The notes under the pieces were generated by a model. The model was given only the letters and a program-made list of their open reading frames with translations, did no database searches and had not been told where the DNA came from. Shown here piece by piece: positions 10,408 to 47,600 of a DNA stretch of 64,000 nt. A program made the translations under genes and the position numbers. Source of the DNA: Natrinema ejinorense. GTDB taxonomy: Archaea > Halobacteriota > Halobacteria > Halobacteriales > Natrialbaceae. The stretch is from NCBI RefSeq assembly GCF_002494345.1, contig NZ_NXNI01000003.1, positions 1 to 64,000 of the forward strand. The letters run 5' to 3'. Position 1 is the stretch's first letter; every line of letters begins with the position of its first letter.

Positions 10408-10892
10408 CGTTCACCTCGAGCGCGGACGGCGTCTTTCCGCGGTGCATCGGCGTAACCGGCGACATGCTCACAACACCACTCACGGGCGGCCTCGATCGAG
10501 TCGAAGACGTCGCTGTCGCGGCACGATCCGATCCGGCTCACCGAGTCGACGTGCTCGCCGGCGTGGAACTGCCGAAGCGTCTCGATGTAGGCGTAGTGGC
10601 GAATCACGACGTACTTGCCGTCGATCGCCTCGCCGGGCCGGTGGGGGTGGACCTGAACGCTCGAGAGGACACGGTCGTCCGCGTCGTCGAAGTCGGCGAA
10701 CGTGATCTCACCGGGAAGGCTGTAGCATTCGCGGCCGTCTCGCGGATCGTACCAGATCGTTTCTGGTTCGTCATGTCCGGCGTATCGGGTGTGCGCTCGG
10801 TGGGTGTGGTTCTCGAGCGTAACGCCGATCTCCGGCGCGTCGGTGCCGGTCAGGTCGGACGTCGTCTCGAGGGTGGACTGGTCGGCGTTCAT
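10404..10892 (-). CDS. Hypothetical protein
   Basis: 162 aa, soluble, acidic N-terminus and basic C-terminus. No recognised motif. Overlaps both neighbours by 4 bp. Confidence 0.58.
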   Translation of the reverse strand: MNADQSTLETTSDLTGTDAPEIGVTLENHTHRAHTRYAGHDEPETIWYDPRDGRECYSLPGEITFADFDDADDRVLSSVQVHPHRPGEAIDGKYVVIRHYAYIETLRQFHAGEHVDSVSRIGSCRDSDVFDSIEAAREWCCEHVAGYADAPRKDAVRARGER

Positions 10893-11182
10893 CGGCTGTC
10901 CTCCGTGAGCCGCCAGCGTGGGCGCTCGCGAAGCTTCACCGTCGACTTGACGACCGTCGCGCCGAAGTCAGGTGCTCGCGGGTGGTCGTTGCCGTGGGTG
11001 ACGGTCAGCGTCACGATGCCGCCCGAGACGTCGTCGACGAGCGCGGTAAAGCGCGGGTGGTCGTCCCACAGGGCGTCACTATGGGGATCGGCCACGGCGT
11101 CAGGGTCGGCCCGCGCTTCGTTGCATCGCCACGTCTGTCCGCGTTCAATCTCGAGTCTGTCTGTCGCAGTCTGTCGTTGCAT
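10889..11182 (-). CDS. Hypothetical protein under leader element A
   Basis: 97 aa. The start is fixed at the ATG at 11182 because it lies one base after the conserved CCCGGTGTTCCCC leader. Longer in-frame readings would run through the hairpin and operator. The beta-rich body (FTALVDDVSGGIVTLTVTHG) has no recognised family. First gene of the 11.2-5.1 kb minus-strand operon, so leader A probably controls the DNA-modification genes. Confidence 0.62.
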   Translation of the reverse strand: MQRQTATDRLEIERGQTWRCNEARADPDAVADPHSDALWDDHPRFTALVDDVSGGIVTLTVTHGNDHPRAPDFGATVVKSTVKLRERPRWRLTEDSR

Positions 11183-11183
11183 T

Positions 11184-11240
11184 GGGGAACACCGGGCGTT
11201 TGCCCGTATCGTAGCATAGTTACGATACGTCATAAAAATA
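11184..11240 (-). promoter_or_regulatory. Promoter/leader element A
   Basis: On the minus strand: TATTTTTATG, then CGTAACTATGCTACG (11224-11210), hairpin CGGGC-AAAC-GCCCG (11206-11193) and GGTGTTCCCC, with the ATG one base further at 11182. Controls the 97-aa gene and probably the operon behind it. Confidence 0.72.
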
Positions 11241-11301: not shown

Positions 11302-11991
11302 TTAGTCGTCGAACGCGAGCGTTTCCGAGTTACAGAGGAAACAGCCGCATTTCTCGAGTGGGATTTCACCCGCGCTCGTCGCGACGCCGTCCTCGTCGAT
11401 CGCCTGTTTCACACGCTGTGCTCGCTCGACGATCGCCGCGAAGCGGTCCGGGTCAAACTCGAAGTAGCCGTTCTCGGGGTAGGTGCGAACCTCCATGTCC
11501 TTTTTCGAGACGTAGACGACTTGGCCGTAGTCCGCGCCGGTCGCAGCCATGTAGACGTGAATCTGGTCGAGATGCCGGTCGTTCGGCGGGTTGAAGTTGT
11601 ACCAGCCGCCGCGGGACTTGAAGTCCGTGACCGCGTTTCGGTCCGAGTCGTAGCAGTCGGTGTGGCCGACGAAGCGGACGCCGTCGGTTTCGTACTCGAC
11701 CGGCTTCTCAAATTCGGCGTCGGCGAGCTGTGGGCCAACGTGCTCCTCGATGAACTCGTGGATCAGCGTCCCGGTCTGGAACGTGCCGAGAATGTCGCTG
11801 TGGTCCTTGAGTCCGAGTTTGCCGAGATACGCCTGTCGCTCACACGCGGCGATCTGGGATGGGTGGAAGGTCACGGCGTCGCGTTCGACATGGCTTTCGT
11901 CGTCGTTTGCATCCTCGAGCGCGGTTTGCAGTCGCGTCTCGAAGTCAATCGGTTCGGGTTCGGTCGTCGTCATAGGTTCCTGAGTCGTCAT
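11302..11991 (-). CDS. Cas4/RecB-like PD-(D/E)XK nuclease with 4-Cys cluster
   Basis: 229 aa; start set at the ATG directly after leader element B. Features in order: Cys in IAACERQAYL, His in LIHEFIEEHV, the nuclease core GHTDCYD...AVTDFKSRGG, QIHVYM motif III and the C-terminal CGCFLCN. One early and three late cysteines is the Cas4/AddB pattern that binds a 4Fe-4S cluster. Expected activity is an Fe-S exonuclease used in replication or recombination of the element; no CRISPR is present in this window. Confidence 0.8.
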   Translation of the reverse strand: MTTQEPMTTTEPEPIDFETRLQTALEDANDDESHVERDAVTFHPSQIAACERQAYLGKLGLKDHSDILGTFQTGTLIHEFIEEHVGPQLADAEFEKPVEYETDGVRFVGHTDCYDSDRNAVTDFKSRGGWYNFNPPNDRHLDQIHVYMAATGADYGQVVYVSKKDMEVRTYPENGYFEFDPDRFAAIVERAQRVKQAIDEDGVATSAGEIPLEKCGCFLCNSETLAFDD

Positions 11992-11992
11992 T

Positions 11993-12052
11993 GGGGAACA
12001 CCGGGCCAGTCTCACTGGCCCTAATCGTAGCATAGTTACGGTTAATCATAAA
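11993..12052 (-). promoter_or_regulatory. Promoter/leader element B
   Basis: On the minus strand: TTTTATGATTA, CGTAACTATGCTACG (12040-12026), an 8-bp hairpin GGGCCAGT-GAG-ACTGGCCC (12021-12003) and GGTGTTCCCC, then one A and the ATG of the Cas4-like nuclease. Confidence 0.72.
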
Positions 12053-12094
12053 ACTACCGGAACGACACTGTTGGCACTCCGAAAGTAGTGAAAT

Positions 12095-12149
12095 CGGCGG
12101 CGTCGAGATACCCGGTGTTCCCCAACAACGAGTGTATGCGACGCCGCCG
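12095..12149. ncRNA. Stem-loop carrying the leader 13-mer
   Basis: CGGCGGCGTCG (12095-12105) pairs perfectly with CGACGCCGCCG (12139-12149). The 33-nt loop contains CCCGGTGTTCCCC (12111-12123). Read on the minus strand, the loop would be complementary to the leaders; on the plus strand it would mimic them. No gene overlaps it. Coordinates are secure, the role is inferred. Confidence 0.5.
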
Positions 12150-12255
12150 GTCAACCCTCTGCGACGACGGGTGAAAAAGCCCGCGTTCGATCCCCGTAAT
12201 TCAAATACCCACTCGAGCAGTCGAAATCGATCGCCGTCGTGCGGTTTGATCGGTA

Positions 12256-12316
12256 TCTTTATTATGTATCGTAACTATGTTACGGTTGGGTAGTAGAGAA
12301 CTACCCGGTGTTCCCC
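12256..12316 (+). promoter_or_regulatory. Promoter/leader element C
   Basis: TCTTTATTATG, the perfect palindrome CGTAAC-TAT-GTTACG (12270-12284), a 7-bp hairpin GGGTAGT-AGAGA-ACTACCC (12288-12306), GGTGTTCCCC (12307-12316), AG and the ATG at 12319. Confidence 0.74.
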
Positions 12317-12318
12317 AG

Positions 12319-12627
12319 ATGCACGGCAAACCATCGAATCTGACCGCTGAATCGTACAACGAACAAATCGAAAAACTCGTCGCGCTGAAATCAGCGCTGG
12401 CGAGCGCGACGTGTGTTGAATCGTTCGATGTGAACGTCGGTGAAAACGGCCGCATTCGCGGGCGTGTCTCGCTGCGTCACTCCGAGCCGTTCTACCAGTT
12501 CAACGAAATCGTTCTCGACCACCCGGTCAGTATGGCCGGCGTCTACAGCGAGGACCGCGTCGAGGATACTCCCGACGGTAGCAAGCGCGAGGTTGCCGAA
12601 ATCCGCGTTCTCGTCGTCGAGGAGTAA
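12319..12627 (+). CDS. Hypothetical protein under leader element C
   Basis: 102 aa from the ATG two bases after the conserved leader motif. N-terminal helix, then a beta-rich part (NVGENGRIRGRVSLRHSEP). No recognised family. Single-gene unit: its own promoter/leader in front and a T6 run behind. Confidence 0.62.
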   Translation: MHGKPSNLTAESYNEQIEKLVALKSALASATCVESFDVNVGENGRIRGRVSLRHSEPFYQFNEIVLDHPVSMAGVYSEDRVEDTPDGSKREVAEIRVLVVEE

Positions 12628-12677: not shown

Positions 12678-12733
12678 CTATTTATAGGGCGTCGTAGCTA
12701 TGCTACGGTACGGGCAAACGCCCGGTGTTCCCC
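12678..12733 (+). promoter_or_regulatory. Promoter/leader element D
   Basis: GCTATTTATAGG, the perfect palindrome CGTAGC-TAT-GCTACG (12693-12707), hairpin CGGGC-AAAC-GCCCG (12711-12724) and GGTGTTCCCC running directly into the ATG at 12734. Heads the HNH-containing operon. Confidence 0.74.
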
Positions 12734-13180
12734 ATGCAAGCATTAGCCGTGAACGAACTACAGTCGCGCTTCGAATGTGTTGCACAGCAAACGGCCCGGT
12801 ATGAGGACGGGTCAGTCAGCGTCTCGGTCAAACGCGCCCTTGACGTACTCGGTCAGACCGGCGTCGCACAGGCGATCCGATTCGCCGAAACCGACGACGT
12901 CTTTCTCGTCGGCGAGCTGGTCGGCAGCGAACTCGACGGGCGGAAGAATCCGATGGGGCGGAATATCAAAGACCCCGGCCACGACTACCGCGTCATGATC
13001 CCACCCGCGGCGTTCGACCACCTCGAGATTGACAAAGAGCAAGTCCAAGCTGGCGAGGCCGATCTCGACGTGTGGGTGTGTACCGACCCGGAGATCGACG
13101 AGTCGGTGATTGCAATTAGTCCGCACATCCGACAGACCTTCATGGTCGACCTCGAGCCGCTACTGGGTGAAGACGAATGA
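12734..13180 (+). CDS. Hypothetical protein; paralogue of the C-terminal half of the HNH gene
   Basis: 148 aa; the ATG immediately follows leader element D. Segments IRFAETDDVFLVGELV, DGRKN, and DLDVWVCTDPEIDESVIAISP line up with the C-terminal domain of the next gene (IRFARSDEFVLTGEVV, DGRKH, DLELWVCADPDEDRHLIAVTP). The shared domain is unnamed to me, compact and beta-rich. Overlaps the HNH gene by ATGA. Confidence 0.65.
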   Translation: MQALAVNELQSRFECVAQQTARYEDGSVSVSVKRALDVLGQTGVAQAIRFAETDDVFLVGELVGSELDGRKNPMGRNIKDPGHDYRVMIPPAAFDHLEIDKEQVQAGEADLDVWVCTDPEIDESVIAISPHIRQTFMVDLEPLLGEDE

Positions 13181-27087: not shown

Positions 27088-28764
27088 TCAGAACTGGTCC
27101 ATCAATTCCTCGGTCCGCTCCTTGCGCGCTTGCTGTTCGTGGATTTCGCGGACGTTCTCGAGGTGGAAATCGATTTGCTTCCCCGGGCCGGTCCCGTCGG
27201 TCGTCACGATCCCACGCTCGGCCAGTGGCCTGATCCCCTTCTCGATATTCGAGTCCGACTGGATATCGATGTCACGGGCGATATCTTCGCGTGTAACCGG
27301 GCCGCCACGACGGAGAACCCCAGCGATGACCGCCCGGACATACCGCGGGGAGCCCTCGTCTTTGGCCTCCTCGATCGCCACTTGGACGTACTCGTCGTCG
27401 ACGAACGATTCGTAGTCGTCCGGTGCGTCGACGGTCGGCTGGTTGGTCTCGAGGTCCGCGATGCGCTCTTGTGCGGCTTCGTACTTTCGCCGCCACTTGC
27501 CCGACTCGTCGCCGGTTGTGACGCCGACGGCTTCCGCGAGGCGTTCGGTCGCTTCGCGAGCCGTCTCGAGGTCGGCGTCGGTCGGCCGGTCGGCCAACTC
27601 CTCGCGGAGAGATTCGACTTCAGACTCTAACCCGGCGATCCGATCCTCCCGTTCTGCGAGGTCGCGCTCGAGTCGATTCTTCTCGGCGACGAGCTGTTCG
27701 ACGTTTTCGCCGGGGCCGTCGTCGGACTGGCCGTTTTGAAGGGCATCGGCCATCTGCCCCGCGAGATCGCGCAGGTCGCGAGCGTTCTCGAGTTCCTGTT
27801 CCAAGTCGTCGATTCGTTCCTCGCGGTCCGCAAGCTCTCGCTCGAGGTCAGCGATCCGATCCTGCCGGCGCTGTTCTTGCTCGCTGATTTCCTCGAGATC
27901 GGCGACGAGATCGTCACTGATCGATTTCAGTTCGGGACGGTCGAAGTCCTCGAGTCCTGGCGTCGCACCCGCGTCGAACGTGCGCTTGCGTCGGAACTGC
28001 ACCCGCTCGATGCGCTCGCCCCAGTCGGTTTGGACGAACGCCTCACCATCGTCTAACTCGGCGATCGCGTCGCGGTAGTCGTTCCCGAGAACGCGCCCAG
28101 CAACCTTCGTATCGTTATCCCACGTGAGCCGGTGCCAGACGAGCCAGTTGGCCTGCGTAATGAAGTCCTTCTTGACATCGGCGGGCCGCTGGCTGATCCC
28201 GACGAGGCCGAGGCCGTGTTTGCGGCCACGCTTGGCGATCTTGACGAGCATCTGCCCCGTCTCATCGAGACCGCCCGATTCGGGGATATACTCGTGGATC
28301 TCCTCGACGACCAGCAAGAACGGCTTTTTCAGGCGTTTCTCTTTGGCGAACAGGTGCCGGGCCGTCTCCCGGATCAGGTCGTTCGCGTCGTCGGCATCCA
28401 AAAACCCAGAGACATCGAGGATGATCGGAACGTTGTCCTCGAGTGCCAGCATCGCCAGTTTTTCCGCGTGTTCAGGCCCAACGCGGAGGTCACACTGTTC
28501 GTCCGCCCCGACATGGAGTAGTTCGTACTGCTCTTTCAGGCCGTAGTACTCGCCGTCCGTATCGACAATCAGTGTTGGGTAACCCGCCTCAAGGAGTTCT
28601 TCGATCACGACGCTTGCGGTGTTGGACTTTCCACTCCCGGATTTGCCGGTGATGAACGCACGGCCCGTGAGTACTTCGACCGTCGGAAGCGAAAAGTCGT
28701 TCTCGCCGACGGGGAGCTGTTCGTCCATCGAATCGTCGGTCGGCTGTTCGGTTTCCGTGTGCAT
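27088..28764 (-). CDS. HerA/DUF87-type ATPase with coiled coil and winged-helix tail
   Basis: 558 aa. Residues about 30-260 form the ATPase: Walker A GKSGSGKSNTASV, Walker B LLVVEEIHEYIPES, and the sensor ISQRPADVKKD. A long heptad coiled coil covers about 290-440. The last 90 residues look like a winged helix (GGPVTREDIARDIDIQSDSN). HerA-like motors pump or process DNA, for example in end resection, packaging or transfer. The coiled-coil insertion is unusual and may mediate partner contacts. Confidence 0.8.
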   Translation of the reverse strand: MHTETEQPTDDSMDEQLPVGENDFSLPTVEVLTGRAFITGKSGSGKSNTASVVIEELLEAGYPTLIVDTDGEYYGLKEQYELLHVGADEQCDLRVGPEHAEKLAMLALEDNVPIILDVSGFLDADDANDLIRETARHLFAKEKRLKKPFLLVVEEIHEYIPESGGLDETGQMLVKIAKRGRKHGLGLVGISQRPADVKKDFITQANWLVWHRLTWDNDTKVAGRVLGNDYRDAIAELDDGEAFVQTDWGERIERVQFRRKRTFDAGATPGLEDFDRPELKSISDDLVADLEEISEQEQRRQDRIADLERELADREERIDDLEQELENARDLRDLAGQMADALQNGQSDDGPGENVEQLVAEKNRLERDLAEREDRIAGLESEVESLREELADRPTDADLETAREATERLAEAVGVTTGDESGKWRRKYEAAQERIADLETNQPTVDAPDDYESFVDDEYVQVAIEEAKDEGSPRYVRAVIAGVLRRGGPVTREDIARDIDIQSDSNIEKGIRPLAERGIVTTDGTGPGKQIDFHLENVREIHEQQARKERTEELMDQF

Positions 28765-35236: not shown

Positions 35237-36012
35237 CGCAGCCCTCCGTCAGGCAGGACAAGCGCCTGTCGTGCCCTTCTCGTCGATTCAGGCAGGTTCG
35301 GGAGTTCCGTGAACTGCCGTCGGACGCCGTCCTCACAGCGAAGATACGGCTCGGTCTCGTTTCGATAGGCAGCGCTCTGTTTGAAAAAGAACGCCGCGCC
35401 GACGCGCCGGCACGCATCCCGAATCGGCCAGACCCACTCGTGAGCCATGTCGCGGTAGTCCGGGCCGGACTCGCCACCGACGATCGCCCAGTCGATCCCC
35501 TCAAGGGATACGTCGCCGACCGGCCCGATCAACGGCTCGAAGCTCACGAACCGCGTGTGAGCGTCCGTCTCGCGGAGCATATCGATGCGGTCGGTCACGC
35601 GGTCGTCTTCGACCGATGTCCCCATCCAGACGTTTTCGGGCCACTCGAGTTCCATGTGGGCCGCCCGTCCGGGGCGCTTCGTCAGCACCTGAAAGACGTG
35701 TTCCGGGCAGTTTCGCATGACCGCAAACACGTCCCGGATGAACGACTCGGAGACCTCTGCATGGAACAGATCGCTCATCGAGTTGACGAAGATCCGCTTC
35801 GGTTCGTCGAGTTTGTAAGGCTCCTCGAGTTTGTCGGGGCGCTCGGTGACGTTCTCGGCGGCGTGCTCGTTGGTCCACTCATGATCGGTGTGGTTGTACT
35901 GGCGGCTGATTCGTTCGGCGTAGCAGTTCTCACAGCCCGCCGAGACCTTCGAACAGCCGTGGACGGGGTTCCACGACTCGTCAGTCCACGCGATGTTGGT
36001 ATCGCTGTTCAT
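35233..36012 (-). CDS. DUF5131 / phage Gp37-Gp68 family protein
   Basis: 259 aa. NIAWTDESWNPVHGCSKVSAGCENCYAERIS is the signature N-terminus, with a three-cysteine CxxxxxGCxxCY cluster resembling radical-SAM Fe-S sites. FQVLTKRPGR, FVSFEPLIGPV and IVGGESGP complete the family series. The biochemical function is not established. Its start region is carried twice because of a 127-bp tandem duplication. Confidence 0.82.
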   Translation of the reverse strand: MNSDTNIAWTDESWNPVHGCSKVSAGCENCYAERISRQYNHTDHEWTNEHAAENVTERPDKLEEPYKLDEPKRIFVNSMSDLFHAEVSESFIRDVFAVMRNCPEHVFQVLTKRPGRAAHMELEWPENVWMGTSVEDDRVTDRIDMLRETDAHTRFVSFEPLIGPVGDVSLEGIDWAIVGGESGPDYRDMAHEWVWPIRDACRRVGAAFFFKQSAAYRNETEPYLRCEDGVRRQFTELPNLPESTRRARQALVLPDGGLR

Positions 36013-36230
36013 CGGAGTCCCCCGCCGGCGTTGGCGGCTTCACGTGCCAGATGTCGATTATCAGTACAGTCGGGACAAGCGTTCGCAGTATCGCTGTTGT
36101 CCCCTCGTCAGTCCACGCGATGTTGGTATCGCTGTTCATCGGAGTCCCCCGCCGGCGTTGGCGGCTTCACGTGCCAGATGTCGATTATCAGTACAGTCGG
36201 GACAAGCGTTCGCAGTATCGCTGTTGTCCC
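35977..36230. repeat. Perfect 127-bp tandem duplication
   Basis: Bases 35977-36103 are repeated without a difference at 36104-36230. Each unit holds the 3' end of the zinc-ribbon gene, the ATGA junction and the first codons of the DUF5131 gene. Identity implies a very recent event or an assembly artefact. Confidence 0.9.
35981..36139 (-). pseudogene. Duplicated, aborted DUF5131 start
   Basis: The upstream copy of the duplication starts MNSDTNIAWTDE like the intact gene, then crosses the junction and ends after 52 codons. It would be translated in place of, or before, the intact copy by coupling from the zinc-ribbon gene. Confidence 0.6.
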
Positions 36231-46629: not shown

Positions 46630-47136
46630 TTACGGACTCCAGTCGAGGTCGTAATCTTCGCTTGCGACAGATGTCTCAGTTTCGTCAGATTCGATTACTG
46701 CGACAACCGAGACTGTACCCGACTCATAGTCACTGACGCTTGAATAGCTACTGTCTATCTGGACGTCAGCACTAGAATCGGTTGAGATTGTGACTACGTC
46801 ACCTACACTGAGGCGAGAAAGCTCCCCTTCGGCAGAACTCCAGTCGGGATTATAGAGATCATCATTCCCTTTGTCCCGGGGCGTACCAGTGATATTGACG
46901 TAATCTGAGTTTCCAAGCGATGTGACCTCAACTCGGATTTCATCGGCTTGTTCGTCGACACTAACTGTGACACCTGCCTGTGCTTCTTGCCCAACACTCC
47001 CGCCGAGGTCGAGCACGAAGGCAGCGATCACTGCTGCAAGAATCACAGTAATGGCTACCATGAGTATGACACCTATGACAGGTGACACTGCGCGTTCTTC
47101 CTCGTCACCAACTAGTTTTGATTTAACATCCATCAT
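46630..47136 (-). CDS. Type IV pilin-like protein 2
   Basis: 168 aa. The N-terminus [20 protein letters not shown] followed by [16 protein letters not shown] is the haloarchaeal pilin class III signal and H-domain, processed by PibD just before the hydrophobic helix. ATGA-coupled to pilin 1, with which it shares the first 60 residues. The C-terminal beta domain differs. Confidence 0.85.
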
Positions 47137-47600
47137 GGAGTGCTAAATCCTTCATATTCTGCGCTGGAAACCTGCGTGCGCGTTTCACTTTCCTGAATAA
47201 CCGCGACAGCCGTTACAGTCCCGCTGGAGCCACTGAGGCCACTGCTCTGATTAAGTCTAACAGTATCACCGACGCCCAGCTTCAGGTCTGCGATAGTGGT
47301 TGTTCCAGTTGAGGAAGCAGCCGCAGTTGTACCAACGTCTCCACTCAGTTCAACGTGGTCGGAATTACCCAACGAAGTCACTTCGACGGTGACGTTTCCG
47401 TTAGCCGTTTCATCAACCTCCATATTCACGCCGGCCTGTGCCTCCTGACCGACACTCCCGCCAAGGTCGAGTACGAACGCAGCAATAACGGCGGCGAGAA
47501 TAACCGTGATCGCCACCATAAGTATGACCCCTATGACAGGGGAGACCGCTCGTTCGTCGTTTCCACCAATCAGCTTCGCGCGATATTCTTTCAAATCCAT
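47133..47600 (-). CDS. Type IV pilin-like protein 1
   Basis: 155 aa with the same class III signal ([20 protein letters not shown]) and a different Ser/Thr-rich C-terminal domain. Surface adhesion or assembly filament subunit; no PilB or PilC gene is in the window, so assembly would need host machinery. Confidence 0.85.

Follow-up and report, generated by a model that had tools for sequence, protein, structure and literature searches.

A plasmid stem-loop of Natrinema ejinorense probably encodes a small antisense RNA for a leader common to four genes

Why should a short sequence that stands directly before the start codons of four genes recur, with no gene of its own, in the loop of a hairpin lying between two of them? 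The question arises at a locus of Natrinema ejinorense, within a 64,000-nucleotide stretch of DNA (the window) that makes up bases 1–64000 of the 72,059-bp contig C3. This contig has genes for an integrase, an Orc1/Cdc6-like protein, DNA methyltransferases, a replication protein and a terminase-like protein. Two plasmids of ~70 kb, pNPA70 (Natrinema pallidum BOL6-1) and pHALXA03 (Halopiger xanaduensis SH-6), are the closest relatives that have names. Comparison of the locus (12095–12149) with related elements leads us to regard it as probably the gene of a small trans-acting antisense RNA, read from the minus strand, for four genes of the plasmid. Two other features of the window were recorded in passing: the plasmid-like replicon encodes both an integrase and the terminase-like protein (27088–28764, minus strand) and may be a virus-plasmid hybrid, and a stretch at 35990–36180 contains CCCGCCGGCGTTGGCGGCTTCACGTGCCAGATG twice, 127 bp apart.

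A 13-nt sequence common to four leaders and one stem-loop

The exact sequence CCCGGTGTTCCCC occurs five times in the window, at 11184–11196 and 11993–12005 on the minus strand and at 12111–12123, 12304–12316 and 12721–12733 on the plus strand; the copy at 12111–12123 forms part of a loop, and the other four end 0–2 nt upstream of an ATG. With up to two mismatches allowed, seven copies were observed versus 2.5 expected, and no shuffle gave seven. Throughout the whole 4.48-Mb genome the 12-mer CCGGTGTTCCCC has just two further exact sites, which we rejected as leaders upon inspection, both being apparently coding and lacking the hairpin-ATG context.

The sequence-only reading had described an 11-bp stem, a 33-nt loop holding the 13-mer, and a geneless gap between divergent leader genes, and every part of this description proved correct. 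The perfect stem (12095–12105 with 12139–12149) lies between the Cas4-like gene (ATG at 11991, minus strand) and the 102-aa gene (ATG at 12319, plus strand), in a region with neither operator, leader hairpin nor gene. Its fold z-scores of −4.1 (plus strand) and −3.7 (minus strand) were not equalled by any of 200 shuffles, and none of 1000 shuffled leaders fully matched any stem-loop in the window. The stem-loop reaches no curated Rfam family threshold, the single match being at chance level and elsewhere in the region, and our search of the window for a consensus terminator for its RNA found none. The features assigned to the predicted RNA are:

12095–12149, minus strand: predicted antisense RNA stem-loop, its loop presenting 5′-CUCGUUGUUGGGGAACACCGGGUA-3′; conserved in relatives
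12172–12178, minus strand: putative TATA-like box TTTTTCA of a candidate promoter, starting 29 nt before the stem base
12083–12094, minus strand: T-containing stretch ATTTCACTACTT 3′ of the stem, a possible 3′ end

The four leaders follow one layout, in which a TATA-like box, the palindrome CGTARCTATGYTACG, a hairpin and GGTGTTCCCC are followed after 0–2 nt by ATG. The 3′ arm of the hairpin ends in CCC and directly abuts GGTGTTCCCC; its arms vary by gene (GGGTAGT, GGGCCAGT, CGGGC), with pairing always kept. The operator-like palindromes stand in all four leader promoters and are absent from the putative promoter of the RNA itself. The leaders and their genes are:

11993–12005, minus strand: leader target of the Cas4-like gene (ATG at 11991; hairpin GGGCCAGTGAGACTGGCCC at 12003–12021)
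12026–12040, no strand assigned: operator-like palindrome CGTAGCATAGTTACG in the Cas4-like gene promoter, recognised by sequence (direct repeat D1)
11302–11991, minus strand: regulated gene for a PD-(D/E)XK / Cas4-like exonuclease (Pfam PF12705, 1.8e-6; PHROG 1706, 7e-26)
11184–11196, minus strand: leader target of the 97-aa gene (ATG at 11182; hairpin CGGGCAAACGCCCG; operator at 11210–11224)
10889–11182, minus strand: regulated gene for a 97-aa uncharacterised protein
12304–12316, plus strand: leader target of the 102-aa gene (ATG at 12319; hairpin at 12288–12306; operator at 12270–12284)
12319–12627, plus strand: regulated gene for a 102-aa uncharacterised protein, with homologues in the elements G046, G005 and G206
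12721–12733, plus strand: leader target of the 148-aa gene (ATG at 12734; hairpin CGGGCAAACGCCCG; operator at 12693–12707)
12734–13180, plus strand: regulated gene for a 148-aa uncharacterised protein, heading a gene run, with an HNH endonuclease gene after it

By eye the 148-aa protein had seemed to have an AbrB-like fold, an idea that drew no support from a PDB sequence search and was dropped. Elsewhere in the window, two type IV pilin-like genes (47061–47539, minus strand) have similar hairpin-like sequence near their ATG codons; these genes, at 47.0 and 47.5 kb, were also set aside, the hairpin before the ATG being conserved coding sequence.

Loops and leaders change together among related elements

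Protein searches identified homologous gene sets in N. gari (G159, L138), Halopiger (G285, L137), N. pallidum DSM 3751 (G079, L139/L161) and pNPA70 (L143) and, outside the family, in G046, G005 and G206. Halococcus dombrowskii plasmid unnamed3 (L164) was reached via the SWIM-like gene of G046, and G069 via a profile built from three SWIM-like genes. In the N. gari contig (L138:1500–1680) we noted a direct duplication with N within the Cas4-like gene, probably an assembly fault. The leader layout is identical in every relative element, apart from a few single leaders that miss the hairpin (e.g. individual genes in G005, G206 and G069), and the sequence after the hairpin varies:

GGTGTTCCCC: the window, pNPA70, Halopiger and N. 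gari
GGTGCTTCC: N. pallidum DSM 3751 (four leaders and the loop)
GTGACTCCCTAC: G046 (two leaders matched by the loop)
GGWGAACACCTATGG: G005 (18 leaders)
AAACACC(T)ATG: G206 (three of four read CCAAACACC)
CCCGACTATGAC: Halococcus (8 leaders)
ATCTACCCTATGG: G069

The G005 set (contig C29, 50000–68000; L159) has its 18 GGWGAACACCTATGG leaders under two palindromes, CCGACCGTATATTGGT and CTACAATGTAGATA, and GGTG alternates there with GGAG, both Shine-Dalgarno pieces.

Our strict detector required that two or more start codons of a locus be preceded by a common sequence, and that the reverse complement of this sequence form part of the loop of a perfect stem (7 bp or longer). Eight copies, spanning five leader types (Natrinema/Halopiger, N. 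pallidum DSM 3751, G046, G005 and Halococcus), each gave a single strong intergenic match. In these eight, the loop complements the element's own leaders over 14–19 nt, which 0 of 1000 shuffled leaders equalled; the distinct leaders of G046, G005 and Halococcus are matched by their loops over 15, 18 and 19 nt, respectively. In two further cases the match is shorter, 12 nt in G206, whose stem includes G-U pairs, and 11 nt in G069, whose stem is weaker; both came from a targeted search and fail the strict test.

N. pallidum DSM 3751 gives the closest comparison, as the sequence is replaced in all four leaders found, in the loop and in the palindrome (AATACACTGTATT). Its 102-aa protein is 67–68% identical to that of the window versus 62–63% for Halopiger, which retains GGTGTTCCCC. 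Stem pairs 1, 6 and 9 show double changes between the window and N. pallidum DSM 3751, with pairing kept. Predicted duplex energies tell the same story: each loop RNA pairs best with its own leader type (means of −31 to −45 kcal/mol, against −13 to −30 for other types), while shuffled-leader duplexes lie at about −17 to −20 kcal/mol and 0 of 500 reach the own-leader mean in nine of the ten copies.

The sequence-only reading had proposed, as a check, to look in related elements for conservation of the loop 13-mer together with leader changes, and had held that relatives whose leaders had changed while the loop had not would speak against it. In every relative found to bear the stem-loop, the loop complements the element's own leaders, and the opposite situation is absent from all of them. 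Pairing kept by coordinated change, a mark of trans-acting antisense small RNAs, is found in five types with the strict detector and in two weaker ones, and the joint replacement of the leader sequence, before the genes and in the hairpin alike, suggests that the plasmid's own gene set has an RNA switch dedicated to it.

Common leaders sometimes come without such an RNA, since G072 has a regulon-wide common leader, yet no anti-leader stem-loop was detected in the 57 kb of it that were read. Many genes there (contig C5, 46000–103000; L221/L200/L222) have a common promoter block CCGGCG..GTATGCAAAAG..CTTAA and the leader GGTCCCTT....GTACGATGG, with no complementary stem-loop found, which makes them a large co-regulated set, either of a different kind or incomplete. 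Among twenty SWIM-gene loci, a clear common-leader set was seen only in G069 and G072, where the strict detector gave no comparable intergenic stem-loop. Searches in other collections added little: the exact leader pattern hit 111 stretches of viral contigs, in none of which leaders were repeated or the hairpin context present; viral and genome contigs scanned with single proteins and by alignment gave nothing beyond two Natrinema contigs already in the set; phage records held no match to the 102-aa or SWIM-like proteins; and across 125 genomes of the family, the leader hairpin pattern was found only in three Natrinema elements.

Strand of the predicted RNA

Joint change of loop and leader is accounted for equally well if the plus strand is transcribed, giving a sense copy of the leader that titrates a leader-binding protein or RNA. 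The sequence-only reading had left both strands in play; the antisense half of that proposal is well supported, by complementarity to the own leaders and by the position of an AT-rich box, and the decoy half has become unlikely. On the anti-leader strand this box starts ~29–37 nt before the stem base in 10 of 10 copies, with its spacing kept in all five Natrialbaceae copies, whereas no suitably placed promoter-like box is seen on the sense strand, where the AT score is lower in nine of the ten copies and tied in one. As four of these copies are closely homologous to one another, about seven of the ten can be counted as independent. The boxes read TTTTTCA in the window, CTTTAT in Halopiger, TATTTAA in G206 and TTTTATAA in Halococcus; G206 and Halococcus thus have a canonical TATA at this position, and the window has a weak TTTTTC only, for which conservation and the better boxes at the same place elsewhere argue as a putative promoter element.

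The stem itself points in the same direction. In G206 the G-U pairs are possible only on the anti-leader strand (−30.6 vs −22.9 kcal/mol), leaving a far weaker stem for a sense-strand decoy. Such a decoy would also lack the 5′ hairpin present in nearly every real leader, and no leader-binding factor is known. Several Ts follow the stem on the anti-leader strand in most copies. Mismatches just beside the core are more often of the type that leaves a G-U pair (24 versus 8 others), an excess given little weight, as the A/C-rich sense strand of the loop makes it partly an effect of composition.

Predicted pairing with the mRNAs and further explanations

For the minus-strand RNA, pairing with the bases before the start codons of all four genes had been claimed, and predicted complementarity of 15–22 nt bears this out. 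The match between the loop and the Cas4-like leader is 22 nt long, with two G-U pairs over the ATG, and corresponds to the 21-nt inverted repeat I2; for the other three window leaders it is 15–18 nt. The start codon falls within the exact loop complement in G005, in Halococcus and in three of the four G206 leaders. Full-length co-folding gave a clearly favourable −15.6 kcal/mol with the Cas4-like mRNA and −1.6 to −6.6 with the others, the weakness of the latter being due to the strong stem of the RNA itself; since the 148-aa gene's mRNA reached only −1.6, strong control of all four genes is uncertain. Loop-linear pairing with the stem left closed is the likelier mode. The stem-loop overlaps none of the four genes, which sets it apart from cis-encoded antisense RNAs of the Tant or RNAII type, and its separate location with complementarity to translation start regions is that of a trans-acting antisense small RNA.

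The leaders lie in promoters that also bear palindromic operators, as would be expected if stem-loop and leaders were binding or recombination sites of a DNA-binding protein with no RNA role. We consider this improbable: the operator palindrome is distinct from the 13-mer and absent at the stem-loop, the 13-mer follows the expected transcription start and runs up to the ATG, the complement reaches into or beyond the start codon in G005 and Halococcus, and a DNA site could do without the 11-bp stem and the oriented AT box. It is very improbable that the fifth 13-mer is a remnant of a lost fifth regulon gene caught in an unrelated hairpin. A duplicated leader would indeed be a simple source of the loop, as the 21-nt inverted repeat with the Cas4-like leader suggests, but the loop copy has no accompanying operator or leader hairpin, and the intergenic stem-loop is kept in eight copies of five leader types, tracking the leaders. 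Least credible is a guide RNA directing an RNA-guided protein (CRISPR-type or resembling transposon-derived ones) to leader DNA or RNA, given that the lineage-specific complementary segment within a structured RNA, and the nucleases among the regulated genes, are offset by the segment's position inside the loop instead of at an end, by the lack of any visible repeat array and by the lack of an Rfam match.

Proposed mechanism

The preferred reading, an antisense RNA from the minus strand, builds on features seen directly in the sequence: the stem-loop, the repeated leaders, the covariation of loop and leader, and the oriented AT box. Transcription would start at the stem base, with the TATA-like box ~29 nt upstream, yielding an RNA of roughly 60–70 nt whose large loop would offer the reverse complement of the leader common to four genes of one plasmid. 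Because the TATA-like box of each gene places the mRNA start near the hairpin, the region available for pairing would be the single strand between hairpin and coding region together with the hairpin edge. Pairing would cover GGUGUUCCCC as well as the 3′ edge of the 5′ hairpin of each mRNA, and in two of the four mRNAs would extend over the start codon by way of G-U pairs. It would thereby be expected to block ribosome loading and translation initiation, possibly with added mRNA cleavage or decay.

The palindromic operator in each target promoter would add transcriptional control by a putative repressor. Since it stands on the targets and not before the stem-loop, the simplest circuit would be a constitutive RNA that damps leaky transcripts; once repression is relieved, target transcripts would swamp the RNA, placing one gene set under two-layer control. 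We infer the transcription, the translational block, the repressor and this constitutive/leak model from the arrangement of these elements.

Relation to known systems and significance

Several described systems share parts of this arrangement. In halovirus phiH, the antisense RNA Tant and a repressor limit early genes (Stolt and Zillig 1993, as described in PMC4284463); like the stem-loop RNA, Tant belongs to a haloarchaeal mobile element, and its outcome, in that account, involves loss of ribosome-binding sites. It is encoded opposite a single target, T1, whereas the stem-loop RNA is located away from its targets and matches between two (G046) and eighteen (G005) separate leaders. The Methanosarcina mazei RNAs sRNA162 (PMC3510493), sRNA154 and sRNA41 (PMC5867862) are trans-acting archaeal RNAs that mask ribosome-binding sites, and loop 2 of sRNA154 is an anti-RBS loop resembling the role proposed here (PMC5867862); these are methanoarchaeal RNAs of metabolic regulation, for which the cited passages describe no identical-leader target set or joint turnover of leader and loop. 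Plasmid pMV158 combines the CopG repressor with antisense RNAII, a small single-hairpin RNA that blocks translation and for which loop-linear pairing has been proposed (PMC4485353). RNAII is likewise plasmid-encoded with a target also under a transcriptional repressor (PMC4485353), but it is bacterial, lies opposite a single target, repB, and controls copy number, while the stem-loop RNA would serve a dispersed gene set. Haloferax volcanii s479 and sRNA132 (PMC8155600, PMC6560208) are haloarchaeal intergenic small RNAs that act in trans on mRNAs; they differ in being host RNAs, with limited seed pairing (s479) and no tie to a mobile element's common 5′ leader. In the open-access literature searched we found no case of a single RNA that serves a set of genes on its own element via an identical leader and whose loop is replaced jointly with that leader between elements.

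To our knowledge, few archaeal small RNAs have a known target logic. Here the targets are on the same plasmid and natural orthogonal variants exist, so that simple swaps would suffice to test the pairing, the strand and the effect. We also entertain, tentatively and with some doubt, that the leader-loop pair may act as a plasmid identity code, each element having its own leader and operator and an antisense RNA that silences only that element's genes, or else the early genes of a like plasmid entering the cell. The joint replacement of leader, loop and operator, with the proteins staying homologous, would then be explained by diversifying selection for orthogonal codes. Should that be so, it would amount to RNA-based immunity or incompatibility between plasmids. 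If the antisense reading is true, the variants would supply archaeal genetics with RNA switches that are ready for use and do not cross-react, and haloarchaeal plasmids would control a dispersed gene set (up to ~18 leaders) via a dedicated antisense RNA and a common leader.
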